64,000 nt of DNA from Clostridia bacterium (GTDB lineage Bacteria > Bacillota > Clostridia > Lachnospirales > Lachnospiraceae), in assembly GCA_910574475.1 (NCBI GenBank), contig CAJTAT010000001.1:372001-436000 (forward strand), read 5' to 3'. A model generated the notes under the pieces. The model was not told the DNA's origin. It ran no database searches and worked only from the letters and a program-made list of their open reading frames with translations. Positions within the stretch are counted from its first letter, which is position 1; each line of letters begins with the position of its first letter. Both the position numbers and the translations under genes were made by a program. This document shows, in pieces, positions 9,547 through 34,869 of this stretch.

Positions 9547-10593
9547 CTAGGTCTCTTCTATATAAAATGTCTCAATCATCTTCTCATACAGTCCATCTTC
9601 ATCCACATGGTATTCATCATAGTTCACTCCCTCTGTCCCTGTCCCCGGAACCGTCCAGTGCTCCGGCTTTCCTTTGGAAGCCAGACTCTCCATCAGCTTC
9701 ACAAACTGATCTGCACCGGCATTTGTTACCATATAGGGCTGCATGGCCTCATAGGAGCGCGTGACAAAACCCGGATCCTCTGCAAACCTCTCCTCTGCCT
9801 TTTCCAGAAATGCTTCCAGGAATACCTCCTGGCGCTCCAGCCTTGACAAAGCGCTCTGGCTTACCCCGATATCCCGGTATCGGATAAACGGTTCGATGTT
9901 TTCAGAGTCCAGTGTAACTTCTGTCCCTTCCTTGTATTCCGGGTACTTCTCCTCCAGGCTGTTGTTTGGCACCGTCACGGTTACATTTCCTACTTCCTCC
10001 ATAACCTCCGAAAGGGCCTCCAGGCTGATTGCACAGTATTTCTCTATGGGCAGCCCATAGAACAGCTGTGACACCGCCTCCACACTCATCCGGCAGCTCT
10101 CATGCTTTCCATCCCCATAGGCATAGGCTAAGTTCAGATGGCTTTTCATAGGCCCCAGGTTCTGCCCTCCCCTTCCGTAATAGTCATAGGGCGTCATGGT
10201 GTCACGGGGGATGGAAACCACTGTCAATTTTCCATCCACCCGATCCCAGGCCACCAGAAATATGGCGTCTGTCTGGCCTGCATCCAGATATCCGGCCTCT
10301 GTTTCCACCAGTTCCGCTTTATCTACACCAAGAAAGAGATAGTTGCTCAGGCGTTCATTATACCGGTACGTTTTCCCGTTCCAGGTGACAGTCCCTGAAC
10401 CGGAAGCATCTGTATCATAAGCGGATTCTGTGTCATTGGCAGAATCCGTATCCTCCATAGAATCCTCCTCATATCCAGACTGTACCTCCTGGACATTCTG
10501 GATTCCCTGAAAGACGATGAATCCTCCCACCGCCACTGCAACCGCACTGGCTGCCACAGGAATCATCCACACCTTCTTCTTTTTCATACGCAT
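9547..10593 (-). CDS. LytR-CpsA-Psr (LCP) family glycopolymer ligase
   Basis: Membrane-bound enzyme expected to transfer the finished polysaccharide from undecaprenyl pyrophosphate to peptidoglycan. One N-terminal transmembrane helix (residues 9-26) is followed by an acidic Asp/Ser linker and the LCP domain. The domain is shown by NYLFLGVDK, GQTDAIFLVAWD and VVSIPRDTM, with the conserved Arg/Asp pairs, and later IRYRD. Length is 348 residues. It lies seven bases after the SGNH-like gene. With CpsB/C/D upstream it completes a typical Gram-positive capsule assembly set. Confidence 0.92.
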   Translation of the reverse strand: MRMKKKKVWMIPVAASAVAVAVGGFIVFQGIQNVQEVQSGYEEDSMEDTDSANDTESAYDTDASGSGTVTWNGKTYRYNERLSNYLFLGVDKAELVETEAGYLDAGQTDAIFLVAWDRVDGKLTVVSIPRDTMTPYDYYGRGGQNLGPMKSHLNLAYAYGDGKHESCRMSVEAVSQLFYGLPIEKYCAISLEALSEVMEEVGNVTVTVPNNSLEEKYPEYKEGTEVTLDSENIEPFIRYRDIGVSQSALSRLERQEVFLEAFLEKAEERFAEDPGFVTRSYEAMQPYMVTNAGADQFVKLMESLASKGKPEHWTVPGTGTEGVNYDEYHVDEDGLYEKMIETFYIEET

Positions 10594-21707: not shown

Positions 21708-22302
21708 TTACCTTGGATTACCCTCTGCAATCCTGGACACGCCCACAAAAATCTCCGAAATTTTATACCAAGTGGGATAATCTACGATTCCATTTGTCGG
21801 AAGTCCAAAGATGGACTGGAAATCCCGCACTGCCGCCTCTGTAGCAGGCCCGAAAATCCCGTCTTCTGCAATGACAGGAAGTGCCGGATAGGCCTGGGCA
21901 ATTCGATTAAGCTGTTCCTGCATTTGTAATACCTTTTGCCCTCTGGCCCCCACAGACAGATTACTCCCCGGCCAGGAATAGGGAACGCCTGAAATTTCCT
22001 CTGCAGTGTTGATATACATAGAATTCCCATAGTAATTTCGTAAAATTTCTATAGCGGAATATCCCTGTTCTCCCAAAGCCTGGCTTCCCCACTGGCTCAT
22101 CCAATTGGGACAAGTCACCCGCCGTCCGTCACAATATTGTGTCAAAATAGGCTGTTTTACATTGGGTCTGGATAGATAATTGCCAAACAATTCATCCACA
22201 ATCCGAGAAATATTTCCAAAAATGTTTCTTCCGTTGATCCATTTGTGATCAAAAGCAGTGGATGATGTAATGGTGAAATCATAGCCTTTATTTCGGTACC
22301 AC
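21708..22302 (-). CDS. sleC: SleC, C-terminal part (gene split by the element)
   Basis: The 3' 194 codons of a spore cortex-lytic enzyme. The sequence from NKGYDFTITSSTAFDH onward continues the SpoIID-like lytic domain, including TQYCDGRRVTCPNWMSQWG. It ends with a peptidoglycan-binding domain (VGARGQKVLQMQEQL, DGIFGPATEAAVRDFQ). No start codon with a ribosome site precedes it; the frame runs into element DNA at 22303. It matches directly to the N-terminal part at 34128-34813: both halves carry Trp-Tyr-Arg in the same frame at the junction. In Clostridia SleC degrades cortex during germination after cleavage of its propeptide by a Csp protease. Confidence 0.88.
22294..22302. repeat. Left attachment site core
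   Basis: CGGTACCAC at 22294-22302 matches CGATACCAC at 34128-34136 with one mismatch; the exact shared core is TACCAC (22297-22302). It marks the left boundary of the element within sleC. Confidence 0.75.
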
Positions 22303-22648
22303 GGAGCATATAGGAATCCAGGGTAGGGATAAGGTATTATTGAGTGAGATTTGGGTAAAAATAGGGGCCAGGAGGGTGAAGTGGATAAGGCATGAGTATG
22401 AGGTAATAGGCTTGTAAAAATAGAATAACAGTAAAGTGATAGTAGGTCAATATCCAAAAGAGGGTATTGGCCTATTTGTTTAGCAAGTAAAAAAGCATGT
22501 CAATAAGGTATGAATATATTTTGAAATATAATTTTGAAAAAAGCAAAGGATGCAAGGTAGTTTAAGGGGTAAGGGAATAATATTTCAAAAGGGTATAGTC
22601 TAATGAAAGTATGTCAAAAAGGCAATTATGAAATGGGAGGAAAAAGGA
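22303..22648. other. Left end of the element, noncoding
   Basis: AT-rich stretch without a supported gene. In the circular form, the plus strand from 22303 to 22417 would continue the frame of the large recombinase at the other end for 37 codons. The rest holds only A/T-rich runs; I see no convincing promoter for the small recombinase. Confidence 0.5.
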
Positions 22649-23293
22649 ATGGTATCTTATGGATATGCAAGGGTAAGTACAAATGAACAGAATCCAGAAC
22701 GCCAGATACAGGCAATAAAGGCATATCGGCATGATATGCTGATAGAAAACATTTTTATAGATAAACAATCGGGAAAGACATTTGATAGACCTAACTATAA
22801 TACCTTAAAACTCATATTAGAGAATTTACGCAAGTCATCAAAAGAGATGCACATAGAATTAATCATAGAGGAATTGGATCGATTAGGTAGAACAAAAGAA
22901 GGGATACGAAAGGAATTAGAATGGTATGCAAAGCAAAATATATTTATTCGTATTTTAGAAATACCAACCACATTAATAGACATAGATGCTCAAAATGAGT
23001 GGGTACTAGAATTAATTAACAAGATATTAATAGAGGTATACTCTTCTCTTGCAGAACAGGAAATGGACAAAAGGGTAAAAAGGCAGTCGGAAGGAATTGC
23101 AGAGGCCAAAAAACAAGGAGTATACAAAGGTAGAAAACCCATACAAGTAAATGAGAATCAGTTTATAAGGGTATACAAAGAATGGAAAGGAAACAAGATA
23201 AAAGGCAAAGAAGCCATGCAAATTTTAGGTTTAAAGCCTAATACATTCTATCGTAGGGTAAAAGAATATGAAGCCAGTTTAAGTTCAGAATGA
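22649..23293 (+). CDS. Small serine recombinase (resolvase/invertase family)
   Basis: Serine recombinase of 214 residues. The catalytic Ser is in YGYARVSTNEQN, the conserved Arg pair region is in EELDRLGRTKEG, and SLAEQEMDKRVKRQSEGIAEA forms the long E helix. A C-terminal helix-turn-helix (KGKEAMQILGLKPNTFYRRVKEY) should bind DNA. The ATG at 22649 has GGGAGG upstream; the frame opens earlier at 22628. It could resolve multimers of the excised circle or act as an invertase. It is separate from the large recombinase at the other end. Confidence 0.9.
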   Translation: MVSYGYARVSTNEQNPERQIQAIKAYRHDMLIENIFIDKQSGKTFDRPNYNTLKLILENLRKSSKEMHIELIIEELDRLGRTKEGIRKELEWYAKQNIFIRILEIPTTLIDIDAQNEWVLELINKILIEVYSSLAEQEMDKRVKRQSEGIAEAKKQGVYKGRKPIQVNENQFIRVYKEWKGNKIKGKEAMQILGLKPNTFYRRVKEYEASLSSE

Positions 23294-23544
23294 AAACAGC
23301 TCATATTTTGCAAATATACCATGCCATTCATACAAAGAGCAAAAATCGCTGTACAGTTAAGATACATAAAATAATTATCAACAATAAAAAGGAAATTATC
23401 AATCAAAAGATAAGAGGAAAAGGAAGTGATTTTCGGCTCTTACAATCTGAAAAAAATCATCATACAAAAGAGGAAAAATTAAAGAACAGTAAAAGTGCAA
23501 AAGAAGTTAAAATTAAAAATCAAAAATTTGATGAGCAAAGTTAA
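23290..23544 (+). CDS. Hypothetical basic protein
   Basis: Frame of 84 residues whose ATG overlaps the recombinase stop (ATGA). It is very rich in Lys, Asn and Ile and has no recognisable domain. There is no good ribosome site, so translation would depend on coupling. The composition follows the AT-rich background, and it may not be a real gene. Confidence 0.3.
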   Translation: MKTAHILQIYHAIHTKSKNRCTVKIHKIIINNKKEIINQKIRGKGSDFRLLQSEKNHHTKEEKLKNSKSAKEVKIKNQKFDEQS

Positions 23545-23688
23545 ACAAGAAAATTAGAGAAAGGGTTTATAGAGAAAAAAGGAAGAAAACATCCCATAAA
23601 AACATTAAAAGTTTTAAAAAAATACCTTGCCTTTTCCCTTATTCAGCGTTACTCTCCCACTACCTTAAAAAGAAAGGAGGGGAAAAGG

Positions 23689-23946
23689 ATGAGGGCAATT
23701 CAAAACCTAAATTCAACAGATTTAATAATCAATCTGTTGAATGAATTAGATTCAGAAATGAATCACTTAACAAATGTATTGGAGGTGATACAAGTAGGTA
23801 TCAAGCATATGCCATATAATGATAAAGAGAATGAAATATCCAGTATATATGTATTAGAACATTACATACAATATTTACAAGATGCTTATGTATTAAATAT
23901 CCTGGATATAATAACAAGCAATAGCCAACACAAGAATAGTTTATAA
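23689..23946 (+). CDS. Small hypothetical protein of the element
   Basis: Acidic, helical protein of 85 residues with a strong AAAGGAGGGG ribosome site before its ATG. Leu/Ile spacing (LIINLLNELDSEMNHLTNVLEVI) suggests an amphipathic helix. No family is recognised. It is convergent with the XRE repressor gene, overlapping its end by six bases. Confidence 0.6.
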   Translation: MRAIQNLNSTDLIINLLNELDSEMNHLTNVLEVIQVGIKHMPYNDKENEISSIYVLEHYIQYLQDAYVLNILDIITSNSQHKNSL

Positions 23947-24225
23947 GCTGTTAAGGAATTGCACAAGAAAAGTTTTTTGTTCTGGTGTCAGCATAGAAGT
24001 ATCAATGGTGTCATTCTCACGGGTATTAAACCCAAGTAAATAATCCGTAGAGCAATGATAAAGTCTGGCAAGGGCCATAAGAACTTCCACACTTGGTGTT
24101 CTTCCGCCTGTCTCATAATTAGAAACAACAGACGGGGAAACGCCAAGTGTCAAGGCAACTTCCTTTTGAGAAAGGTGGTTTAGTATTCTTTGTTGGTGTA
24201 ACCGTTCACCTAATCCATGAATCAT
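23941..24225 (-). CDS. XRE family transcriptional repressor
   Basis: Cro/CI-type DNA-binding protein of 94 residues. The helix-turn-helix is LSQKEVALTLGVSPSVVSNYETGGRTPS, followed by the usual LMALARLYHCSTDYLLG segment. AGGAGG precedes the ATG. It is the only minus-strand gene of the element and is divergent from the gene at 24359. A perfect palindrome lies in the shared control region, so it likely represses element functions and itself. Confidence 0.9.
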   Translation of the reverse strand: MIHGLGERLHQQRILNHLSQKEVALTLGVSPSVVSNYETGGRTPSVEVLMALARLYHCSTDYLLGFNTRENDTIDTSMLTPEQKTFLVQFLNSL

Positions 24226-24245
24226 ATGAGACCTCCTGTTATTAG

Positions 24246-24263
24246 TTTATTGTAGACAATAAA
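24246..24263. promoter_or_regulatory. Palindromic operator, likely for the XRE repressor
   Basis: TTTATTGTAGACAATAAA is a perfect 8-bp inverted repeat with a 2-bp centre, located between the divergent repressor and 24359 genes. Confidence 0.65.
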
Positions 24264-24299
24264 TGCTTTCTATAGGTCAACAAAACAATGCTAAAAGCA

Positions 24300-24328
24300 T
24301 TGAAAAATTGACTTAAAGGAAGTATAAT
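24300..24328 (+). promoter_or_regulatory. Rightward promoter of the 24359 gene
   Basis: TTGAAA (24300-24305), 17 bases, TATAAT (24323-24328), 30 bases before the ATG. Confidence 0.75.
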
Positions 24329-24358
24329 AATACTAAATACAAAGGAGGAAGGGTTAAT

Positions 24359-24808
24359 ATGATGGATATTAAAGAGCTTACAACATATGATATTGAGGTC
24401 TTAGAACTGATAAAAGATTTGAAAGAGTTTAAGGGCAAGGGTTTTGAACATTCATCCTTAGATGAAAAAGTGCAAGCATTTATAGAGGGAAATCAAGGCT
24501 CAAGTGATTTTGATGAACAATTATTTGTAAGCAGTATATTAGAGTTAAGCAAAAGTAAATGCATTAAGACCTCAAACAAGGGAGGTACCAGATTAGAGGT
24601 TTTGGATATTACAATACAGGGGTTAGAAATTATAGAACAATTAAGCGGAGGTAAAGTAGAGAAAGAAAAGGAGAATGGAGAAACAGTTATCATAAATAAT
24701 AATACAATCAATCTTAAAAGTATTAAAAATAAAGCGTTTAACTTATTATGTAACAATAAAGCAAAAGTAGATAATCCCAAGGTAGGAATAAATCCAAGCG
24801 TATTTTAA
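24359..24808 (+). CDS. Hypothetical cytoplasmic protein, possible winged-helix fold
   Basis: Protein of 149 residues preceded by AAAGGAGGAAGGG and a good promoter. The N-terminal two thirds alternate helices and a short hairpin (KGGTRLEVLDITIQGLEII) in the way of small winged-helix proteins, but no family is certain. It is placed opposite the XRE repressor, a position often held by a regulator or an excision-control gene. Confidence 0.65.
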   Translation: MMDIKELTTYDIEVLELIKDLKEFKGKGFEHSSLDEKVQAFIEGNQGSSDFDEQLFVSSILELSKSKCIKTSNKGGTRLEVLDITIQGLEIIEQLSGGKVEKEKENGETVIINNNTINLKSIKNKAFNLLCNNKAKVDNPKVGINPSVF

Positions 24809-24860
24809 ATGTATTATACATACAATCGGGCATAAAAATAAAATAAAGAAAAATAAAATT

Positions 24861-24895
24861 TTTGTGGTGGTATGCGAAGAGCATATCACCACAAA
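24861..24895 (+). other. Strong stem-loop before the lipoprotein gene
   Basis: TTTGTGGTG and TATGC pair with GCATA and CACCACAAA around a GAAGA loop, about 30 bases upstream of the 24925 start. No T-run follows on the plus strand, so it is more likely a leader structure than a terminator. Confidence 0.5.
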
Positions 24896-24924
24896 CACTA
24901 TTAGGAAAAGGAGAACGCTAACAA

Positions 24925-26538
24925 ATGGATGGAAAGTTTATGAAGATCAAAAAGCTCATCATACCAACAATAACAATGTTAATCATGTGCAGTCAAATAA
25001 TGGGCTGTGCTTCAGTTTCTTCAAAAGAGATGGTCGAACTATTGCGGGAGGGATCTACAATAGAGATTGAAGTAGCCGTACCCTCCTATTATGAAGAAGA
25101 ACAAGGCACAGAATCCACCCTAGCATGGACAGAACTAGGATCACAGTCAAACTACCAAGAGTTCAGAATGGGTTTTGACGATCTATTCCGGGTATTAAGT
25201 TTCGATCAAGGAAAGAAGAATGGTCCTTGTTACATAGACCTAGAGGGCAACTGGACAAACAACAGCACCCTCTACTATGCAATGCAAAACAAAGTATTTG
25301 CAGATATACTCAAAGACAGTGACACCCTCACGGATCTAACAGAATATGTTCAAAATAATTATATAGACATAGATGAAAGTGATGAAAAGACAATCAGAGA
25401 TATAGCAATCAATGCTTATTTTAGTTTATTTGATGACAATGAAGTAGGCTATGCAAACAAAAACAGTACCCTAACTCGTGGTGAATTTCTAGCTGGTCTA
25501 GTAAAGAGTGATACCCCAGTAGATACAAACCTACAATCCAATAGTGATTTAGTATCCTTAGTAGGAAGTGATTCAGAGCAAGTCAAGTTAGCAAGCCAAG
25601 CACTAGACAATTCTTACTTAGATGTAGAAAGTAAAAGTTTAGATTCAACAACTTTCAATGGAACAATCACCAGAGCAGAAGCCATATATACGATAGTTCA
25701 AAGATACTTTAGCAACGAATATGCGGCTGTAAAGGATAATGACAAGGCATACAAAGACACAGGCAATGCCCAAGACATAGCCCTTAGAGCAGGCATCAAA
25801 GACAAAAAGACCAATGAAGCCCCAGACAGATGGAAAGCAGGAATCATGTCTCTAATGGTCAACGAACCCCACAAAGGAATGGACAAAGAATTATTCAAAG
25901 CAATGGTAGTCAGCAAACAGTTAGGTTTAATAGAAGGTGAAGAGAGTAATTGGGATGAAGCTTTAACAAAGGGAGAAGCCATCGAATTAATTCTAAGAGC
26001 AAATGAAGCCATAGCAACCAGAGATGGTTATGCAACAGATTCAGAGTTAGGTTTAAACGAGGGACAAAGCATAAGTCGGGGAGATCAAGTCAGTGATGTT
26101 GACACTAGCCAAGGCAATGGAGAATACCAAGACACAGAGGTAAATGGAGATATCGTAGATGGGACAGCTCTCACACAGGAAGAAATAGAGCAATTAAAAG
26201 CTAATGCTACAACAGACAAAGAAAAAGATAGTATAGATGCATATGAATCTATAACTAAAACAGGTACATGGACTAGTCCTAACGGTGGTACATATAATGA
26301 AGTAGTTGGAAAACCTGGAGACACATCCTGGCGTCAAATGACAGACCAAGAAGCCAAGGTAGCATTAGCTAATGATCCAGAATTATTATTACCTCAAGCC
26401 GAATTAGCAAATGGTACATGGTGTAAATTTATGTTTGGCAAGGTATATTTTGACCCTTACAAATATTTAGAAGATTCAGAGAAAGCAATGGATGATATAT
26501 CAGATCAATTAATAACATCTGAAAATTTTGAAGATTAA
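24925..26538 (+). CDS. Surface lipoprotein with SLH-like repeats
   Basis: Exported protein of 537 residues. The N-terminus has basic residues, a hydrophobic run and a Cys (SQIMGCASVSS) consistent with a lipobox, though the -3/-2 residues are not ideal. Three segments resemble S-layer-homology cores: TLTRGEFLAGLV, TITRAEAIYTIVQRYF and ALTKGEAIELILR. The C-terminal third is acidic with a TGTWTSPNGGTYNEVVGKPGDTSWR stretch of unknown role. GGAG lies 11 bases before the ATG. Its job on a mobile element is unknown; a surface function in the host cell is inferred. Confidence 0.7.
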   Translation: MDGKFMKIKKLIIPTITMLIMCSQIMGCASVSSKEMVELLREGSTIEIEVAVPSYYEEEQGTESTLAWTELGSQSNYQEFRMGFDDLFRVLSFDQGKKNGPCYIDLEGNWTNNSTLYYAMQNKVFADILKDSDTLTDLTEYVQNNYIDIDESDEKTIRDIAINAYFSLFDDNEVGYANKNSTLTRGEFLAGLVKSDTPVDTNLQSNSDLVSLVGSDSEQVKLASQALDNSYLDVESKSLDSTTFNGTITRAEAIYTIVQRYFSNEYAAVKDNDKAYKDTGNAQDIALRAGIKDKKTNEAPDRWKAGIMSLMVNEPHKGMDKELFKAMVVSKQLGLIEGEESNWDEALTKGEAIELILRANEAIATRDGYATDSELGLNEGQSISRGDQVSDVDTSQGNGEYQDTEVNGDIVDGTALTQEEIEQLKANATTDKEKDSIDAYESITKTGTWTSPNGGTYNEVVGKPGDTSWRQMTDQEAKVALANDPELLLPQAELANGTWCKFMFGKVYFDPYKYLEDSEKAMDDISDQLITSENFED

Positions 26539-26680
26539 TCAATATTCTACCCAGATGCCAAGATAATTTATCTTAGCATCTGGGTAAAAAACTCAATAGA
26601 AACAAATTTTTAATAAGTTTAAACAGTAATTTGTAATTTTTCCAATTTTGCGGTATACTATATATGAGGTGGTGATTATA

Positions 26681-27004
26681 ATGCTTAATCTATCAGAGAT
26701 TATAAAAACATTGCAAAGCGTATATAATAAATATGATAACATAAAAATAGGATTAGCTGGTTCATATGCAAATAATACATCAAAAATAGATAGTGATATA
26801 GATGTAGTAATAGATGGTGATTCAATGCGAATAGATATAGCAGAGTATATCAAAGGACTATTTAGTATTCCTGTGGATATATTATGGCTTGAATTACTGA
26901 AAGAGGATGATGAAGAACTTGATAGATATGCTTTGTCTATAGGAGTTCCGCAAAATAAACATTCAGTTTATAAGACAATTTTAAGGGAAGTGAAGTGGGT
27001 ATGA
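26681..27004 (+). CDS. mntA: MNT-type nucleotidyltransferase antitoxin MntA
   Basis: Minimal nucleotidyltransferase of 107 residues. The motif GLAGSYANNTSKIDSDIDVV gives the GS and DxD catalytic signature. In MntA/HepT systems this protein adds AMP units to the HEPN toxin and neutralises it. The ATG at 26681 follows AGGTGGTG. Its last four bases overlap the start of the HEPN gene (ATGA), the typical gene order for the pair. Confidence 0.9.
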   Translation: MLNLSEIIKTLQSVYNKYDNIKIGLAGSYANNTSKIDSDIDVVIDGDSMRIDIAEYIKGLFSIPVDILWLELLKEDDEELDRYALSIGVPQNKHSVYKTILREVKWV

Positions 27005-27378
27005 CTAAATCATACAGTAAAGATATTCAATTACTTTTAAAAATATCACAAAATCAACAGAAAATCAAAATGGTATTAAAAGATTTTAAGTGTACAGAGA
27101 TAGATTTAGATACTAATACATACGCCTTTGATTTATGTGCATTATATATGTCTCAAATAGGGGAAGCGAGTAAATATCTTACAGATAGTACAAAGCAATC
27201 TTTTAAATATTTCGATCCATCTATTACAAGTTATTTTAGGAATATGATAGATCATGTATATGAAAAAGTTAATAAGAAATATTTAAAGGCATATATTTTT
27301 AGTATGATAAAGCAAGAAGTTATAAAAGAAATAATTGACAGAATAAATTTCTGTACTGAACATGCAAAGAATAAGTAA
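27001..27378 (+). CDS. hepT: HEPN-domain toxin HepT
   Basis: HEPN ribonuclease-type toxin of 125 residues. The Rx4HxY motif is intact as RNMIDHVY near residue 80, with Arg, His and the modifiable Tyr all present. Partnered with MntA, it forms an addiction or defence module that would stabilise the element while it is integrated or circular. The ATG at 27001 overlaps the mntA stop. Confidence 0.9.
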   Translation: MTKSYSKDIQLLLKISQNQQKIKMVLKDFKCTEIDLDTNTYAFDLCALYMSQIGEASKYLTDSTKQSFKYFDPSITSYFRNMIDHVYEKVNKKYLKAYIFSMIKQEVIKEIIDRINFCTEHAKNK

Positions 27379-27401
27379 TTATAGAAGAACTTTTATAGCA
27401 G

Positions 27402-27436
27402 GCACTGACCCCACAAAGTCAGTGCTTATTTAATTT
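27402..27436 (+). terminator. Terminator of the mntA-hepT unit
   Basis: GCACTGAC (27402-27409) pairs with GTCAGTGC (27418-27425), followed by TTATTTAATTT. Confidence 0.75.
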
Positions 27437-27523
27437 CACTTCAAGCCCCCAAATATACATCTAAAATAGATTAAGATAAAAAATAGTTGTCAATAATTTT
27501 GGATAAAGGAGGACAAGCAAACA

Positions 27524-29071
27524 ATGGTACGAAAAAGAAGTTACATCCCAATATTATTTACAATCATATCACTGTTATTATTAATAGTACTTTTAAACAC
27601 TTCTCCTGCTCATGCAACAGGTGGTGTAAATGGTGAATACCATGATACTGTAAATGGAACAAACGTTGATATAGAGCATCCTTGGTCAGAGAAGTTTAAG
27701 GGTTATAGAATATCTATAGTATCAGAATCAGATAAAAATGTAGATAAGACAATAGACATGTGGTTTGGTAATGGTACACATGAGGATGTATTCCGATTAA
27801 CAAGACCAGACCCGGCACATGGACTATGGGCAAGTTCTTATCTAGGTGCCACACGTGAATCTCAAGAAGTATCAAAAGTAAACAGAATTTATGATGATGC
27901 AGAAGATTTTTTAAATGAATCTGGAAACAATGAAATGCCACATCCTTGGTATGGGTTTACCTCAAATGGACAGCAATTAGAAAATTGGATATATACAACA
28001 GAGGAAGGAGAGGAATACTGTAATGGACTAAGATTGATTGAAAAGATTTGGGGGACTGAAATATTAGAGCAATATGTAAATGATCCAAATAATGAGGAAT
28101 TTTATATAATCATAGAGGGGTTATCTCTATTTGACATGTTAGATGAATATAATGAAAGAATAGGCATTTTTGCCGGAACAGCCTTTAACTGGAGTGGTAG
28201 ATTAAGTGGTTGGTTGCACATGCCATATGGTAATGTATGGTTAAGGAGAGGAACCAATGGTGCTTTTGCAATATCCCTCCAATTAGAGGAAACTTGGAAG
28301 GGTGTCAACACTTGGGGGCAAATGGATATGCCAGTGAGGAAAAGTGTTGGTACAGATCCAAATATAGAGACACAATTTATAAGTGCTGAGGAATTAAGGA
28401 CTTATGGATATGATGTAGTAGTTTATAGGTTTAGTGATGTAATGAACCTAAGCACCCACACCTGGGATTACCCATTAGGCGAAACCCCAGGGCCAGCCCC
28501 AGAGGTAGAAGATCTAAAGAAGAATAAAATAAATATCATAAAAGTATATTGTACACGTGACAAAGAAACGGAGGAAGTCATAAGTTGGGATGGCAGTTTC
28601 CTTCGCAAAGAAAATCCAAAGACAATACAAATAGAGGATGAACCAGAGTATATAGTAGAGGAATGGAAAACGACGAGGGATAAGAACCCCACGGCCCCAC
28701 CAACTTGGGACCCCATAAAGCCCAGGCCGCATATACAGAAAGGCACCTCCCAAGGCACAGTAACCCTAGACCCCACAGACCCCACCAAAGAACAAACCCT
28801 CTATGTTCTATTAGTAAAATATGAAGAGATAGACAATGAAAAGGATTTAATCTTACATGAAAGTGAAATCAGCAGATATTATGAGTTAACAAATGTAAAA
28901 GAGTTTAACACCCTAGATAGAAATATTCAAAACCAATCTTATTCATACTATAAAAAAAATCGAGTAAAGGCAAATTGCACAATGCCCTACATGCCAGAAT
29001 GTTTTCAACAACATTCTTTTTTTATGCAACAACATATATTTTGCACATTCCAAAAAAGCAGGAAAAGATGA
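27524..29071 (+). CDS. Large exported protein, C-terminus probably frameshifted
   Basis: Frame of 515 residues with a clear signal peptide (hydrophobic run residues 9-28, likely cut after AHA). The mature part has no recognised family; Trp, Tyr, Asp and Asn are frequent and a Pro-rich linker lies near residues 385-420. The last 40 residues look unlike the rest and run through a terminator hairpin at 28998-29023. An A8 run at 28952-28959 precedes them: with seven A residues the frame would end at once as ...KKIE-stop. The tail is therefore suspect. AAAGGAGG lies before the ATG. Confidence 0.7.
   Translation: MVRKRSYIPILFTIISLLLLIVLLNTSPAHATGGVNGEYHDTVNGTNVDIEHPWSEKFKGYRISIVSESDKNVDKTIDMWFGNGTHEDVFRLTRPDPAHGLWASSYLGATRESQEVSKVNRIYDDAEDFLNESGNNEMPHPWYGFTSNGQQLENWIYTTEEGEEYCNGLRLIEKIWGTEILEQYVNDPNNEEFYIIIEGLSLFDMLDEYNERIGIFAGTAFNWSGRLSGWLHMPYGNVWLRRGTNGAFAISLQLEETWKGVNTWGQMDMPVRKSVGTDPNIETQFISAEELRTYGYDVVVYRFSDVMNLSTHTWDYPLGETPGPAPEVEDLKKNKINIIKVYCTRDKETEEVISWDGSFLRKENPKTIQIEDEPEYIVEEWKTTRDKNPTAPPTWDPIKPRPHIQKGTSQGTVTLDPTDPTKEQTLYVLLVKYEEIDNEKDLILHESEISRYYELTNVKEFNTLDRNIQNQSYSYYKKNRVKANCTMPYMPECFQQHSFFMQQHIFCTFQKSRKR
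28998..29023 (+). terminator. Terminator inside the 3' end of the exported-protein frame
   Basis: GAATGTT/AACATTC stem followed by seven T residues at 29017-29023. Its location inside the annotated frame supports an earlier natural stop. Confidence 0.75.
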
Positions 29072-29164
29072 CTTAAGCACAAAATAAGTTTATCTATTCT
29101 GCTAATTTTTTTATGTTAAACAATATGGTATTCTGAAGTCATACTTATAAAGGTGGTGAAACAA

Positions 29165-30109
29165 ATGGAAGAGATTAAGCTTGTCATAGGGGCAAGGAGG
29201 ACACAAGTAATCGTTTATGAGGATGTAGATTACGGGATACCAAAGGATACCATATACAAAGAGAAGAAAATCCCAGTCAAGAGACAAGAAGATAAAGAGC
29301 AAGAAGATAAAGAGAAGAAACAATCTTCCTATGCAGCGTTCAATTATTATCAGCGATTGAAGAAAAGAAGGGAAACACTAAAGGAATTAATCTACAATAA
29401 TTTTGCGGTTCCAAACGTATCCTTTTTAACATTAACGTTTGATGATACTCAAAGGGGTGAGAAAGATTATACGGATTTAGATACTGCACACAGGGAGTTT
29501 AAGAATTTCATCTTAAGGATGAACCGTAAATACAACAATTTTAAATATGTGGGTGTGTTTGCAAGGCAAAAGACAGGGAACTGGCACTATCACCTGATAT
29601 GTAATTTAGATCACAAGACAACCAACAAAGAAGTAGAGACCATATGGAAAAGAGGATATGTCTGGATAGAGTATATAAAAGCAAATAGCGATTTTTATGA
29701 TAAAGTTAGCTATTGTATCCGCAACATGCAAGAGGTAGGTTTAAAGGAATTACAAGGGGAAAAGGGCTATTTATGTTCAAAAAACCTACAAAGGAATATC
29801 GTCTTGAGGACATGGAGGGAAAATGAGTTAGAGGAATGTAGAGAGGTATTCCAAGATATTAGGACAAAGAAAAATAAATTGTTGTATACATCAGAAAAAG
29901 TACAAGGCGTAAAAGCCAAAACAGCAGACCAAGAAACAGGAGAAATCCTATATTATTATGATAATCAAAAGATATTAAATGATACATTAGAAAGATATGG
30001 ATATGAGGAATGGAAAAGCACCTTTCATCATATTTCATCAAGTGCAAAATATCCAGAGCGATTCAAGTTATTAGAATGTGCAGAGAAAATACAAAAGAAG
30101 AAAGATTAA
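29165..30109 (+). CDS. HUH-type rolling-circle replication initiator
   Basis: Rep-like endonuclease of 314 residues. It has the three HUH-class motifs in order: FLTLTFDD near residue 80, the metal-binding NWHYHLICNL near residue 140, and a Tyr-bearing helix FYDKVSYCIRNM near residue 180. Such proteins nick one strand at an origin to start rolling-circle replication. Its presence suggests that the excised circle can replicate, or that the element descends from a small plasmid or phage. The ATG at 29165 follows GGTGG at eight bases; a GTG at 29153 is less likely. Confidence 0.85.
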   Translation: MEEIKLVIGARRTQVIVYEDVDYGIPKDTIYKEKKIPVKRQEDKEQEDKEKKQSSYAAFNYYQRLKKRRETLKELIYNNFAVPNVSFLTLTFDDTQRGEKDYTDLDTAHREFKNFILRMNRKYNNFKYVGVFARQKTGNWHYHLICNLDHKTTNKEVETIWKRGYVWIEYIKANSDFYDKVSYCIRNMQEVGLKELQGEKGYLCSKNLQRNIVLRTWRENELEECREVFQDIRTKKNKLLYTSEKVQGVKAKTADQETGEILYYYDNQKILNDTLERYGYEEWKSTFHHISSSAKYPERFKLLECAEKIQKKKD

Positions 30110-30188
30110 ACAAGATTAAATTCATCAAAAATACATCATATGCAAACATAGATAAAAAATAATTAAAGATTTAGGGAGTAATAATTTT

Positions 30189-30231
30189 AAAGGGAGTTAA
30201 GATAGATAAGTTTATTTTAACTCTCTTTATT
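30189..30231 (+). terminator. Stem-loop/terminator after rep
   Basis: AAAGGGAGTTAA pairs with TTAACTCTCTTT around a 16-base loop, 80 bases after the rep stop; only a short T-run follows. Confidence 0.5.
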
Positions 30232-30433
30232 GCACATATACCATATATGCAAGCAGTAATTATATAATAAATACAAATTGGCTATATTCCCTAACAGCCC
30301 TCATTTCATGCGGCAATCTCCCTAAAAAATATGATTCACTTCTGGCTATTACGTCAACAGACACCGTAGTTTTTCAGCGTTAGAATGTGTGTATAAGTTA
30401 AATAAAAAACATTTTTCTAAGGAGGAAAACATT
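30232..30433. other. Noncoding gap after rep with an imperfect palindrome
   Basis: No gene is seen. TTGCACATAT at 30230-30239 is matched in inverted orientation by ATATATGCAA at 30243-30252 (one mismatch), which could be a replication or regulator site. The rest is AT-rich with no clear promoter. Confidence 0.35.
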
Positions 30434-30913
30434 ATGTGTAAAATCGTAGTAAACCAAGTAAATCAGTTTAGTTGCAGGATTCAGGGTTATGAATTGTTTG
30501 AAACCAAGACCGGAGAAATCATAGGCATGACCGAGAAAGATATCGTTAAGGCCATCAATGCGGATGAAACAATCTTAGGTCTGACACTGGACAGTGAAAA
30601 CAAAGTAGTTTTGGATAGTGAGAGCTTTTTCCAGAATAACATCATGGTAAAGACAACCTTAACCAGTATGCATCCATTAAATGAGGACTGCCCGGTAAAT
30701 ATCCTGTATACGGTAATCGGTTTAAATGGAGACAAGTACATCCTGTTAAACAGCCGGTTTGGACGTAGTGAGGTTACCAAAAACAAATTATCTGCCATGT
30801 TAGAAATCGGTTTGATACAAGGTGGAGCAAGGTTACAAGAGAATGGAGAGATTGAGATTGTAGAGGTTTTAAAGCCGCAAGCAACCATGAAAAAGGAAGT
30901 CAAAGAGAAATAG
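30434..30913 (+). CDS. Hypothetical protein of the element
   Basis: Protein of 159 residues with a strong AAGGAGG site before the ATG at 30434. It appears soluble, with mixed alpha/beta character. Recognisable family signatures are absent. Base composition is less AT-biased than in its neighbours, so it may have a different origin or be highly expressed. A terminator follows 30 bases after the stop. Confidence 0.7.
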   Translation: MCKIVVNQVNQFSCRIQGYELFETKTGEIIGMTEKDIVKAINADETILGLTLDSENKVVLDSESFFQNNIMVKTTLTSMHPLNEDCPVNILYTVIGLNGDKYILLNSRFGRSEVTKNKLSAMLEIGLIQGGARLQENGEIEIVEVLKPQATMKKEVKEK

Positions 30914-30941
30914 GATAAAAGAGAGGATAATAAGGTACAAT

Positions 30942-30980
30942 GCCCTATGTCAAATTCAACTTGACATAGGGTATTTTTCT
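30942..30980 (+). terminator. Terminator of the 30434 gene
   Basis: CCCTATGTCAA/TTGACATAGGG perfect 11-bp stem followed by TATTTTTC. Confidence 0.85.
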
Positions 30981-31045
30981 ATGGATACCTGGAGAATATA
31001 CGTCAATTAGAAAATAAAACTAAAAAAAAGAAAGGAGTTAAGGAC

Positions 31046-31237
31046 ATGATTATTACTGCTAGTGCATATTACCAAGAGGAAGCTGAGGGAGAAATAAAAA
31101 GCAGGCTTCGGGCATCTATTCATGTAGACAGTTCTAATGAATCAACTGATCGAAGAGCAAAATCTATTGCAAGGAATTTATATAGTAATATGGTAGTAAT
31201 GATACCAAGGGAGGGAAATCAAGATGTGGTTAAATAG
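31046..31237 (+). CDS. Small hypothetical protein
   Basis: Protein of 63 residues with AAAGGAG eight bases before its ATG. Charged, with no recognised family. Its end overlaps the start of the next small gene by 14 bases, so the two are probably translated together. Confidence 0.55.
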   Translation: MIITASAYYQEEAEGEIKSRLRASIHVDSSNESTDRRAKSIARNLYSNMVVMIPREGNQDVVK

Positions 31238-31415
31238 GATGTATGTTTGGCAGGCAGACGGATTATTATACATTTATACACAATATGGAGAACTAAAGGC
31301 CACAGTAGCATTGCCGCAAAATGGTCAACAATTACAGAATATCCGTATCCTGGACAAGATAACTAAAATCTTAGCAATGGCATGGGGATATATAACACCA
31401 CAGGAAAAAAAGTAA
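31224..31415 (+). CDS. Small hypothetical protein
   Basis: Protein of 63 residues, preceded by GGGAGGG within the end of the gene before it. Beta-rich N-terminal half (WQADGLLYIYTQYGELKATV) and a helical C-terminal half; no family recognised. A terminator follows at 31431. Confidence 0.55.
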   Translation: MWLNRMYVWQADGLLYIYTQYGELKATVALPQNGQQLQNIRILDKITKILAMAWGYITPQEKK

Positions 31416-31430
31416 TTGTTTGATAGATAG

Positions 31431-31460
31431 GGGAATAGGAATCAACCTATTCCTTTTTCT
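31431..31460 (+). terminator. Terminator after the small-gene pair
   Basis: GAATAGG/CCTATTC stem followed by CTTTTTCT, 16 bases after the stop codon. Confidence 0.8.
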
Positions 31461-32221
31461 ATGCCAGCATTTATTTATAAACCAAAATAAATCTAGTTAG
31501 TAAAGGGGATAAAGCACAGAATATAGAAACTATGAAAAAAAGAGAATAAATATCATTACAACAATAAGGCTAGTGATAAATTTTATGAATCAGCAACTAC
31601 TATTCTATTATGATAAAATGAAAGAAATGCAAGTGAGTTTATACAAAGAAAGGGAAAAATTATATCAATGGAGTTTAACCTTTTGAGAAAAGGTTAAGAT
31701 TAACCATAATTTATAAAAGCATGGATGAAGGGAATAATTTTTTTAAAAAATAGGTTTAAATAGGGTAAAAAAGGTATGGAACGCAAAAATAAAAGGGGGG
31801 AGGAAATGGAATCCATATACATTACCTTTCAAGCTTAATAATTTCTTTCCACAAGCAATAAGATCAAAAGATAGAATAAAAAATAACAATAAAAGTAATC
31901 CTCTCTTCTATATCAATCTAAATATTGTTCATAATCAATCCCTCAAATTGTTTAAACCCGAAGAAAATAATGTAGCTTTATAAGACATGCACCCATTCCT
32001 ATAAAAACAGAGATAAGAAAGTAAATAATAGAAACATTGAGGAAAAACCATCATACGTTCTGTTTCAGAAACATGTACAGAGTATACATTACTTTTTATG
32101 CACAGAAAAAATCTAAAACAGCCTATACATTCTGTTAATAGACCTATATTTTTCAAAAAGTATGCATAGCATGATTGTCATACATATTTTGGATACCCAA
32201 ATAAAAAGGAGTTTTGCTGTG
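31461..32221 (+). other. Long AT-rich gap before the recombinase operon
   Basis: No strong gene. It holds a possible 33-codon frame at 31585-31686, a 10-codon frame at about 31806 behind a very purine-rich stretch, and CATACATA at about 32179-32186, which resembles a mother-cell sigma-E -10 box without a convincing -35. This is where control signals for the recombinase would be expected. Confidence 0.35.
31585..31686 (+). CDS. Possible 33-residue peptide
   Basis: Short frame reading MNQQLLFYYDKMKEM..., amphipathic and helical in appearance. The ribosome site is poor. Included only because it is the one helix-like small frame in the long gap before the recombinase. Confidence 0.2.
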   Translation: MNQQLLFYYDKMKEMQVSLYKEREKLYQWSLTF

Positions 32222-32539
32222 ATGAAAGGTTATACATCATTTATTTGGGTCTACCAAAAAACAAGGAATCATAAAGTAAAAGTAAGGAAACAACAGGATG
32301 TGGAGAAGATCAAAGGAAAGGTAAAAAGGGTAACTTATCATTATAAAAGTCCTATCACAGATAAGTTTCAAATCACCTTGGAATTTAAAAGTAATCCTGA
32401 TAGCAATAAAATCAAACAAGAAGTAAAAGAAATATTAAAGGGAGAATTTTTGAAGAATTTTATAGAAAGCTCTGGACAAAGCCGAGACCTGGCGTTATCA
32501 TCACCCCCACATTTAGATAAGGAGGAAACAAGGGAATGA
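32222..32539 (+). CDS. Small protein coupled to the large recombinase
   Basis: Protein of 105 residues, Lys-rich, starting MKGYTSFIWVYQK with AAAAGGAG upstream. Its stop overlaps the recombinase ATG (ATGA at 32536-32539), so both are made from one message. No domain is recognised. A small basic protein encoded just before a large serine recombinase is a candidate accessory or directionality factor; this rests on position only. Confidence 0.6.
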   Translation: MKGYTSFIWVYQKTRNHKVKVRKQQDVEKIKGKVKRVTYHYKSPITDKFQITLEFKSNPDSNKIKQEVKEILKGEFLKNFIESSGQSRDLALSSPPHLDKEETRE

Positions 32540-34161
32540 AGAAAGTAAGGTGTTTATATCGTGTATCGTCAAAACAGCAGTTGCATGGGGATGATATACC
32601 ACTACAAAGGAATGAGTGTAAGGAATTTATTGCTCATCAGTCAGACTGGAAATTTGATTCAGAATACATAGAAAAAGGAGTATCGGGCTATAAGAAAGCC
32701 ATCAGGGAAAGAGATATATTGATGGAGATTGTGAGGGATGCATCCAAGAAAGAATTTGATATTCTATTAGTTTATATGTCTGATCGTTTAGGACGCAGGG
32801 AGGGGGAAACCCCTTTGTATGTATCAAACCTAAATAACCTGGGAATTGAGGTCTGGTCAGTCAAGGAAGGAAAAATAGAAACAGAGGAACATATTGACAA
32901 GCTTTTGAACTATATTCGTTTCTGGCAGGCAGAGGGAGAAAGCAGGAAAACAGGAATCCGTGTAAGGGATGCACAGTTAGATAAAGTAAGAAAGGGAGAG
33001 TTTGTAGGGGGCTGTGCTCCATTGGGTTATGATTTGATACCAACGGGAGAAATCAATGCACATGGAAGGATTGCCAGGAAGTTAGTCATAAATGAAGAGA
33101 AAGCAAAGTTAGTCCGCCAGATTTTCAATTATGCTCTCAATTATGGTTATGGTTCGTTTAAGATTGCAAAGGTTTTAAATGAGCAGAAAATACCTGCACT
33201 TAAAAGTGATGAATGGAAAAGCACATCTATTTCCTGCATATTAAAGAATCCTATCTACAAGGGCTATGTGGCAAGGCGTGATGGAGGGCCTAATGGGAGT
33301 AAGACCTATTCAGAACAGCCCAATCCCGATTACATCATCATACCAGAGGATATCTGGGATAAAGTGCAAGATATAAGGGAATGTAGGGTAAAAAGGATGC
33401 GAAGGACTTATCCCATTTCCACAAGTGGCCGTTTATTGTTTATGGATATCTTATATTGTGGTTATTGTGGGAGAAAGTTTACCAATGGGAGCAAATATGA
33501 TTATTGGACAACAAAGGATGGGGAGAAGAGACAGAAGATTGTAGGCAGGTATCGCTGTGGTACAAAGGCTGTAGGTTCCCTCCAATGCAAGGGAAGGGGA
33601 GCATACAGGCAGGAGGAAATAGAGCCAATCCTATTAAATGTCATAGGAACATACATGGATTCTTTAGGCAAGGCAGAGGTTTATTCAGAACTTTTAGAGA
33701 TGCAGGAAAAGCAGAGAAAGGCTTTACAGACTACCATCAACCAACAAAAGAAAAAAATAAAAGCCATAAAAGAAGATATTACAACACTAGAGGATAAAAT
33801 ACCTGATGCAATCCGGGGGGAATATGTAATACCTCTTGAAAGATTATCCAATCTCCTGGAGGACAGAGAGAAAAGCCTACAAGATGAGATACAAACCTTA
33901 GAGGATATGGAGCAAGAATATGAGCAATCCGAACTGGACATCCAAGATTTAGAGAGATATAATAATCTCATCATAAATTGGAGAGAGACCTTTGAGCAAG
34001 CCCCAGTCCCTATGAAAAAAGTAATCATTGGCAAATTGATTGAACGGATAGATGTTTACAATGATGACATCAAGATCAAATTTAGAATCAGTTTAGAGGA
34101 TTTTGGACAAAGAATCCATGGTAATAGCGATACCACTCTGTATATACGCGATTCAAAGTAA
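32536..34161 (+). CDS. Large serine recombinase (element integrase/excisionase)
   Basis: Site-specific recombinase of 541 residues. The N-terminal catalytic domain has YRVSSKQQ with the nucleophile Ser, and the Arg-bearing YMSDRLGRREGE segment. The recombinase domain follows (GGCAPLGYDLIP), then a zinc ribbon (ILYCGYCGRKFTNG and a later RYRCGTK...LQCKG), and a coiled coil at about 390-480. It lies at the right end, transcribed outward. The last seven codons (LYIRDSK) are read from the antisense strand of host sleC, so its C-terminus depends on whether the element is integrated. It is the obvious enzyme for excision. Confidence 0.95.
   Translation: MKKVRCLYRVSSKQQLHGDDIPLQRNECKEFIAHQSDWKFDSEYIEKGVSGYKKAIRERDILMEIVRDASKKEFDILLVYMSDRLGRREGETPLYVSNLNNLGIEVWSVKEGKIETEEHIDKLLNYIRFWQAEGESRKTGIRVRDAQLDKVRKGEFVGGCAPLGYDLIPTGEINAHGRIARKLVINEEKAKLVRQIFNYALNYGYGSFKIAKVLNEQKIPALKSDEWKSTSISCILKNPIYKGYVARRDGGPNGSKTYSEQPNPDYIIIPEDIWDKVQDIRECRVKRMRRTYPISTSGRLLFMDILYCGYCGRKFTNGSKYDYWTTKDGEKRQKIVGRYRCGTKAVGSLQCKGRGAYRQEEIEPILLNVIGTYMDSLGKAEVYSELLEMQEKQRKALQTTINQQKKKIKAIKEDITTLEDKIPDAIRGEYVIPLERLSNLLEDREKSLQDEIQTLEDMEQEYEQSELDIQDLERYNNLIINWRETFEQAPVPMKKVIIGKLIERIDVYNDDIKIKFRISLEDFGQRIHGNSDTTLYIRDSK
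34128..34136. repeat. Right attachment site core
   Basis: CGATACCAC, matching CGGTACCAC at 22294-22302 with one mismatch. TACCAC at 34131-34136 is the exact shared core and marks the right boundary of the element. Confidence 0.75.
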
Positions 34162-34813
34162 AGGACATAATAGCCAGAATATTTGCCCGAATGGCCGCCT
34201 CACTCCAGGTGGCATAGATTTCACTGGATGCCACATTTTTAATATAATCTTTATAGCGGACCCAATAATTCGTAGCTGAGCTGTCAGTGGGAACACCGTC
34301 ATGGACGATTACGTATTCCGGCACTACTACCCGGCTCAGGACAATTTCCCCCGTCTCATTGACTGGCTTAATCTCAGCTTCTGCAATTTTAGGCGGGTAA
34401 TCTCCAAACAGTGTATGGGCAGGAATTACAAAACGCTCATATTCCCTACCGTCCTGTAATGGAACCATCTTAATATTCTGTAAAGCCGTCACATTGGGAA
34501 GGATTTCTGCTCCTACCACCTCCACCGGCTCATATCCCGGTGCTGTCACTTCCATCGTATATTCTGAATAAGGCTGCTGTTCACTTGGCTCAATACTATA
34601 TTCCAAAGGCGGGGCAGCCAATTCCAGCTCTTCTGTCTGCCCTGATTCATTTGTCGTTACTTCTTCCAGTTCCCGTTCTGGTTCTCCCGTATAGTAGATT
34701 GCTATTTTTGCCCCTGATATGGGCGTTGCTCCAAGAGCTGATGTAACATTTACCTGCAGGCGGCCCATGTCCACCGCCTCTGTCTGCATGGCTTTCACTG
34801 GAATATCGCGCAT
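34128..34813 (-). CDS. sleC: SleC, N-terminal part (gene split by the element)
   Basis: The 5' 229 codons of the cortex-lytic enzyme. It holds the beta-rich pre/pro region (MGRLQVNVTSALG, ELAAPPLEYSIEPS) and the start of the SpoIID-like domain, VASSEIYATWSEAAIRANILAI. After ...VYTEWYR the frame enters the element and stops 12 codons later at 34088. Joined to the 194 codons at 21708-22292 it gives 423 residues, the size expected of clostridial SleC. The ATG at 34813 has GAGGG upstream; another in-frame ATG lies two codons earlier. A sigma-K-type promoter precedes it. Confidence 0.88.
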
Positions 34814-34842
34814 AATCATCCCTCATAGACCATATTTCTATA

Positions 34843-34869
34843 TAGCTTATGCAGGAAAAATAGTTTGGT
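34843..34869 (-). promoter_or_regulatory. Sigma-K-type promoter of sleC
   Basis: On the minus strand AC (34868-34869), 16 bases, then CATAAGCTA (34843-34851). This fits the Bacillus mother-cell sigma-K consensus AC-N16/17-CATANNNTA. It lies about 30 bases before the sleC start. Confidence 0.6.

Follow-up and report, generated by a model that had tools for sequence, protein, structure and literature searches.

Programmed excision of an intervening element from a sporulation gene is known from sigK, gerE, spsM, spoVFB and yabG (PMC10747680). Here we have analysed a window of 64,000 nucleotides (positions 372,001 to 436,000 of contig CAJTAT010000001.1, assembly GCA_910574475.1, a Clostridia bacterium of the Lachnospiraceae) in which an element of 11,834 bp with its own large serine recombinase (LSR) interrupts the germination gene sleC. 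As far as sequence comparison goes, the site-specific insertion of an LSR element in sleC is as good as certain. We also consider it fairly probable that the element, placed there by its LSR, is cut out by the same enzyme in the sporulating mother cell, where sleC would be rejoined. That it works like the skin element is the best explanation of those features that can be tested in sequence, the excision step itself being predicted.

The skin element in sigK of Bacillus subtilis and Clostridioides difficile (PMC5025042) is likewise an LSR-bearing element that splits a mother-cell sporulation gene, with the LSR at its boundary, and there too some relatives are without the element. In C. difficile the LSR is CD1231 and the directionality factor CD1234 (PMC5025042). 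However, the target here is a germination enzyme and not a sigma factor, three sites are used in one gene, the LSR of the window lies beside the 5' part and convergent with the gene, and upstream of the candidate directionality factor we saw no promoter of the mother-cell type. The SPbeta prophage in spsM of B. subtilis (PMC4191935) likewise interrupts a spore-envelope gene, and phages may use the sleC site as well (IMG/VR stretch L191, see below), but the target differs and no phage structural genes were recognised in the window element. Closer in this respect is gin in gerE of Bacillus cereus ATCC10987 (PMC5595907), also not a prophage, with several serine recombinase genes and a phage-type attachment site (attP) that is symmetric about its central dinucleotide, where it is cleaved. 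Gin needs a small extra factor, GirX (PMC5595907), to which a small candidate open reading frame (ORF) of our element might be likened. It is described from B. cereus and Bacillus toyonensis strains at one site (PMC5595907), whereas sleC elements are found in many genera and at three sites.

The element yin in yabG of Clostridium botulinum V73 (PMC10747680) also intervenes in a gene of the sigma-K regulon, and in the same germination pathway, since YabG processes pre-pro-SleC (PMC10747680). Yin is described as unique to one strain (PMC10747680), in contrast to the split of sleC, which recurs across a family. Many diverse LSRs on one conserved site within one gene have likewise been reported in a large LSR survey (PMC10083194), but its targets are magnesium chelatase/protease and prolyl isomerase genes, and its main text mentions sporulation a single time, in the title of a reference. 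In the literature that we consulted, sleC figures either among the targets of sigma-K (PMC5025042, PMC3789822) or as the gene of a YabG substrate (PMC10747680). We found no report of a sleC-intervening element in the open-access full-text literature, subscription papers being mostly outside that search. What appears new is the target, the gene of a germination enzyme, together with the use of three sites in it by at least two distant LSR lineages and the occurrence in a major gut family. Should excision take place only in the mother cell, these gut commensals would carry the gene of a germination enzyme as separate parts and reassemble it whenever they sporulate, which would bear on why these organisms differ in germination.

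A sleC gene in two parts

The sleC gene of the window is cut after Tyr231, and both parts are open and in register. The 5' part (34132..34819, reverse strand) comprises codons 1-231, with an ATG at 34819 or 34813, ends with NRVYTEWY at the core and is 86-90% identical to the intact sleC of the closest sister genomes. The 3' part (21708..22299, reverse strand) runs from R232/N233 (NKGYDF...) to the natural stop and contains a PG_binding_1 domain. Between them lies the intervening element (22299..34132), whose 11,834 bp are counted between the predicted crossover dinucleotides, the junctions having been compared with the intact sleC of relatives. The 6-mer TACCAC (GTGGTA in the sense of sleC) stands at both ends with a spacing of 11,834 bp, at 22297..22302 on the side of the 3' part (predicted crossover dinucleotide AC/GT at 22298-22299) and at 34131..34136 on the side of the 5' part (dinucleotide at 34132-34133).

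A previous reading of this DNA, made from sequence only, had described sleC as split by an 11.83-kb element, with two parts that could be rejoined in frame without the loss of a codon. The parts are indeed where it placed them, and they correspond to residues 1-231 and 232-425 of the intact sleC of a sister species without any gap. There is no stop or frameshift in either part. A second intact SleC, which would speak against that reading, was not found in the window genome, each part having exactly one match there. The split gene is sleC because the intact sister protein (P0001, 425 residues, from G006) matches the solved pre-pro-form of SleC (9h68) nearly over its full length (residues 19-425, E 1.2e-135).

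The element carries its own LSR at the boundary, as had been proposed. This protein of 541 residues (32536..34161, forward strand) matches Pfam Resolvase, Recombinase and Zn_ribbon_recom and the integrase family PHROG 95, and belongs to the clade of LSRs at this codon (100/99). Its gene adjoins the 5' part of sleC, is convergent with it and continues at the 3' end past the junction into sleC DNA.

Other members of the genus have the split at this codon too. Among 16 genomes of the genus, sleC is whole in 11, absent in one (G007), present as contig-end pieces in another (G003) and split at this codon in three, namely the window genome (G000), G002, where the element is of ca. 4.1 kb, and G011, where the two sleC parts are on different contigs. 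The LSRs of G002 and G011 are 87-90% identical to that of the window, while no such LSR was found in the other 13 genomes of the genus (G004 has one of 33%). Uninterrupted copies with the same junction sequence, which the sequence-only reading had proposed to look for, were also found in sister species: in all seven intact relatives compared, the DNA reads straight through the site. On this comparison the split at this codon, which we call site A, is not a matter of chance, as LSRs of one clade sit at the same codon in ten other genera besides the two sister species.

To examine the attachment sites, we took nine site-A elements and joined both ends of each into an attP-like sequence. Their summed inverted-repeat symmetry reached 112/216 when centred on the GT of TG[GT]A, against 32-63 at 16 other offsets. 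Most of this symmetry comes from the other genera; taken singly, the window element, G002 and G011 reach 8/24 with GT as the centre, a score that ranks tied first, second and tied first, respectively. The LSR is predicted to recombine at this GT dinucleotide of sleC. When the three elements of the genus are aligned in the orientation of their LSRs, 31-40 of the 48 arm positions are shared, as opposed to 19 and 22 with the window arm flipped. The central dinucleotide is AC in the window element and GT in G002 and G011. Serine integrases are oriented by the central dinucleotide, and the inverted dinucleotide between aligned arms accounts for the opposite orientation of the window element.

Recurrence across the family

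We extended the comparison to a sample of 397 genomes of the family, 255 of them with sleC. The genomes searched again were the 47, besides the window genome, with a best sleC match weaker than 1e-160, plus G241, G002 and G011, and genomes with a strong long match were left out of the inspection for additional split copies. Counting as split those with both parts present, or with one part abutting an LSR, we found a split sleC in 30 of the 255 sleC-bearing genomes (ca. 12%), belonging to 29 genera. Eleven are cut at site A, after Tyr231 (G000, G071, G081, G143, G182, G227, G243, G353, G357, G387, G402), and 17 at a second codon, site B, between Trp296-Met297 and Thr/Ser-Gln (G031, G063, G067, G086, G093, G096, G098, G134, G205, G233, G249, G256, G263, G291, G294, G344, G407). 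The remaining two (G231, G324) are cut at a third place, site C, at about residue 168. Beyond this sample there are G002 and G011 (site A) and a member of another family of the order, G049 (site B). Where both parts were on separate contigs, a flank other than sleC was read on at least one side, except in G249 and G294. We identified no LSR beside sleC in G353 or within the stretches examined for G067, G098, G249 and G294. As a control we used TyrS, whose best E-value was weaker than 1e-130 in 12/382 genomes, against 32/255 for sleC, a crude comparison since E-values depend on the protein. In genome annotations, a sleC that is only interrupted may be listed as missing or defective.

Several candidates were treated apart. 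G260 has a split copy next to a long sleC match and was counted separately. We did not count G202, in which sleC ends exactly at site A and the LSR is of another clade without adjoining sleC; nor G171, G266, G090 and G241, with a single site-B piece each; nor G115 and G244, without a site-A LSR (E<=1e-90). Stops inside an unsplit sleC were seen in G241, G379 and G042.

The recombinases follow the sites. In all, 13 of the genomes examined have an LSR of a single clade at site A, those of the ten further genera being 36-47% identical. In a tree of 46 LSRs, 15 site-A LSRs together with one phage LSR (L191) form one clade (100/99) and 15 site-B LSRs form a separate and distant one (100/99); the tree was midpoint-rooted, and one site-C sequence sits on a very long branch, so that its placement is unsure. 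The clades match the sites, and therefore two distant LSR lineages each keep their own codon of one gene. A search blind to sleC, in which four candidates per genome were scored, gave 14 of 299 family genomes with an LSR at E<=1e-60, and all eight with E<=1e-90 abut sleC at site A. In a wide protein search there were 619 LSR relatives at E<=1e-100. Among the matches listed from phage and plasmid collections none was closer than 34% to the window LSR, and every match was below 60%.

A viral genome fragment belongs to this picture. The stretch L191 is part of a 68-kb IMG/VR contig with genes for an anaerobic ribonucleotide reductase and a dUTPase, an LSR of the site-A clade and then tail genes. 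No sleC was found within this stretch. Just behind the LSR (9560-9800) there is a symmetric repeat (20/24) centred on AC/GT with the core GAATGGTA, and this core occurs at site A in the sleC of G010, G015, G004 and G005. We predict that this phage integrates in sleC.

The elements are very different in size. Those at site B go down to 2.4-2.6 kb, with little besides the LSR (G263, G291, G256, G407). In some cases the gene appears to be in three pieces. The IMG/VR contig L185 (2079-10314) has sleC residues 18-233, a site-A element with its LSR, residues 231-299 and then an LSR of the site-B clade. On another, L190 (569-2441), the middle piece (231-298) lies behind a site-A LSR and is followed by other DNA from the exact site-B junction; a site-B LSR was not found in the 10.2 kb examined. 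We see as evenly poised between right and wrong the wider proposition that sleC is a rearrangement hub, in which at least two LSR lineages would each hold their own codon, with a third site besides, some genes in three pieces would need two excisions, germination capacity would be assembled in the mother cell, and the small LSR-only elements would be domesticated, intron-like survivors of temperate phages. In any case, the many natural pairs of attP and bacterial (attB) sites and the minimal elements of 2.4-2.6 kb offer material with which the origin of such switches from phages could be tested.

Constraint, timing and rival readings

If sleC were dead in the carriers, decay would be expected in one part or the other. 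It had been claimed that neither half of the window gene shows decay, and this extends to all 34 readable genomes with splits at sites A and B. Reading the N-terminal parts from the start of the alignment, no stop or frameshift precedes the junction in 13/13 N-parts and 12/12 C-parts at site A, nor in 19/19 N-parts and 19/20 C-parts at site B, the one exception lying unreadable at the end of a contig. At site A, the codon of the junction turns into TAA in G227 and G143. The ratio of nonsynonymous to synonymous change (omega) between split genes of the genus is 0.023-0.030 for the N part (3/3 pairs usable) and 0.016-0.026 for the C part (2/3). For split against intact genes the medians are 0.049 and 0.036 (20/33 pairs each); intact genes compared with one another give 0.052 and 0.037 (35 and 40 of 55 pairs). 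For a site-B pair, G344/G096, with saturated synonymous divergence (dS), the nonsynonymous divergence (dN) of the sleC parts (0.122 and 0.039) is lower than that of the LSR (0.183). The dS of the LSR is 0.62, 1.25 and 1.45 for pairs in which that of the host gene secA is 0.74, 1.61 and 1.94, i.e., somewhat lower. Because it is not far below that of the host gene, a long residence of the element in sleC is likely.

The probable time of expression of sleC also fits. A sigma-K-type promoter match, AC-N16-CATAAGCTA, lies upstream of the window gene (34843..34869, reverse strand), and of 80 named loci, 41 have the pattern AC-N14-17-CATANNNTR before sleC (mean 0.9 and maximum 3 in shuffled sequences). 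The sigma-K-type motif was present in 4/4 split genomes tried. Since sleC is sigma-K-dependent in C. difficile (PMC3789822; PMC5025042) and this motif stands upstream, sleC is likely to be on only in the mother cell. A gene of this kind would be a suitable target because a rearrangement in a dying cell costs the lineage nothing. A SigK-like match was obtained in 20/20 genomes searched (9 over the family cut-off), and in the window genome it is uninterrupted.

The mechanism that we favour would then be as follows. In the sporulating mother cell the same LSR that integrated the element would excise it, at a time set by sporulation, and sleC would be rejoined in frame, while the spore line keeps the element. 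The rejoined product would be the SleC of the mature spore, and the element could remain integrated without disabling germination. The small ORF of 125 residues directly upstream of the LSR (32162..32539, forward strand) would be the recombination directionality factor, a candidate guessed from its position. G002 and G011 have homologues of it in the same position (61 and 66% identity); a protein search gave five relatives, and none of the family matches was convincing. Of 13 site-A elements, 10 have a small ORF before the LSR (G000, G002, G011, G182, G260, G387, G227, G071, G357, G243), the seven outside the genus being at the same place with weak similarity (21-22%); we could make out none in G143 and G402, and in G081 the contig begins inside the LSR.

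The alternative that survives best is an ordinary selfish element, for which a conserved stretch of sleC is just a landing site. Excision would be occasional and not timed to sporulation, and until the element departs the carriers would be without SleC and would germinate with SleB/CwlJ-type enzymes. Several findings weigh on this side and against an excision programmed in the mother cell. The sigma-K pattern was found within 250 bp upstream of 0/10 small ORFs, 0/12 site-A LSRs and 1/13 site-B LSRs, a sigma-E pattern was not found in the same 250 bp upstream of small ORFs or LSRs, and the bare CATANNNTA occurs upstream of 2, 2 and 4 of them, respectively, within the range of shuffled sequences. 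The predicted rejoined joint of the window element has 0 matches in IMG/VR, and no excision product was seen. Hydrolase_2 (SleB/CwlJ-type) proteins are present in 20/20 genomes searched, with four in the window genome, so that the loss of SleC might be tolerated and SleC is perhaps not the sole cortex hydrolase. The site-A clade includes the phage LSR of L191, and cargo size and content vary between carriers. Six weaker LSR relatives of the blind search (E<=1e-60) sit at loci without sleC, and the LSR relative of IMG/VR stretch L192 is ca. 120 bp from a transfer RNA gene for proline called by ARAGORN, which indicates that the wider LSR family is one of ordinary mobile-element integrases. The omega values are rough, dS being near saturation, and the constraint may predate the insertion on individual branches. 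Finally, the intact G006 is as close to G002 and G011 by secA dS (0.50 and 0.60; 366 codons) as these are to each other, so that the element has been precisely lost, or gained more than once.

Nevertheless, we consider the selfish element rather unlikely. Both sleC parts are open in every readable genome and constrained within the genus, a single gene with a late mother-cell promoter motif is the target of two LSR clades that are distant from each other and is also cut at a third site, and site-B elements of little more than the LSR are odd for a free-living mobile element. As for a mother-cell control of the LSR or the directionality factor, it could act elsewhere in the element; in the C. 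difficile skin element the LSR is constitutive and the directionality factor alone is timed (PMC5025042). The earlier proposal of a skin-like switch stands for the split, the frame, the LSR and the open parts. The four Hydrolase_2 matches, and the failure to find a mother-cell promoter before the LSR or the small ORF, speak against a simple on/off switch of germination.

It is very improbable that sleC works as two separate fragments or is a dead gene yet to decay. There are possible start codons for the 3' part upstream of the junction in some carriers, and single insertions could be young. However, site A falls inside a weak SpoIID match (residues 187-242, below the Pfam cut-off), so that neither part would hold this domain, and neither the intact frames of the 34 genomes nor the divergence of the LSRs, which nearly matches that of host genes, suits a gene on its way out. 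An artefact of assembly or binning, for which one could invoke the many draft assemblies with parts on separate contigs, is next to impossible, as the window parts are on one 852-kb contig of a 4.46-Mb genome, other single-contig cases include contigs of 3.5 and 3.8 Mb (G357, G143), and the codon is identical across many genera.

One possible trace of excision was discarded. An overlap of contig ends in G113, considered as a sign of mixed joined and split forms, is of exactly 141 bases, begins upstream of the core and looks like an assembler k-mer; this genome is without a site-A LSR (E<=1e-90). At two further IMG/VR relatives of the LSR, L187 and L188, ARAGORN calls no transfer RNA gene.

Cargo and further observations

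Besides the LSR and the small ORF, the window element encodes at its other end a small serine recombinase or resolvase (22628..23293, forward strand; Pfam Resolvase), with a 31% homologue in the site-A element of G387, a member of another genus whose LSR is also beside the 5' part. The same element has homologues of an XRE-type repressor-like regulator (23941..24225, reverse strand; HTH_3; 60%) and of a cargo protein of 174 residues (30389..30913, forward strand; 34%). On the forward strand there are also a protein similar to rolling-circle replication initiators (29153..30109; REP_ORF2-G2P) and an MNT-like nucleotidyltransferase (26648..27004; NTP_transf_2), which may form an MNT/HEPT pair with the ORF that follows (26995-27378, without a Pfam match). 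Two large cargo ORFs on the same strand, of 537 residues (24925..26538) and of 515 residues with an N-terminal hydrophobic segment (27524..29071), gave no convincing family match and no family match, respectively. No phage structural genes were recognised by Pfam or PHROG in the window element.

The reading frame of the LSR enters sleC DNA (34133-34161), as do the open frames of other site-A LSRs. Its last residues must therefore differ between the integrated and the circular form, and such a changing tail could couple the state of integration to the recombinase.

With regard to the history of the gene in the genus, the N part of G011 and G002 differs from that of G006 by a dS of 2.3 and saturated, respectively, while the C part gives 1.1-1.3 and secA 0.5-0.6. 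The N part has diverged as if it had moved between lineages with the element. In G244 (C1:227165-227183) sleC has a frameshift near site A and no element, either a scar or a sequencing error. At site C, the junction arms of G231 (L159/L160) are a perfect inverted repeat, CATACACCAGC / GCTGGTGTATG, around CCCC.

Other genes of these genomes appear to be interrupted as well. In G353 (C64:51864-55022, L249) a second, SleC-like paralogue is seemingly cut near the site-A codon too; the stretch is short and its LSR has an internal TGA. A SigK-like gene is in two pieces, as with skin, in G071 (C1:57063-57341 / 82751-83101, 25 kb apart) and in G256 (C5:103779-104087 / 93211-93567, 10 kb apart), so that each of these genomes has two interrupted sporulation genes, sleC and the sigK-like one. 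G357 has an additional 3'-terminal fragment of sleC (C1:858842-858991; 10346-10489 of L147) ca. 5.7 kb past the 3' part, perhaps a remnant of an earlier element. By eye, genes of metabolic appearance (glycosidase, serine-dehydratase-like and peptide-transport-like) lie between the sleC parts in L052 (G031), L171 (G093) and L156 (G402), and they would be an unusual cargo if they are part of the elements.

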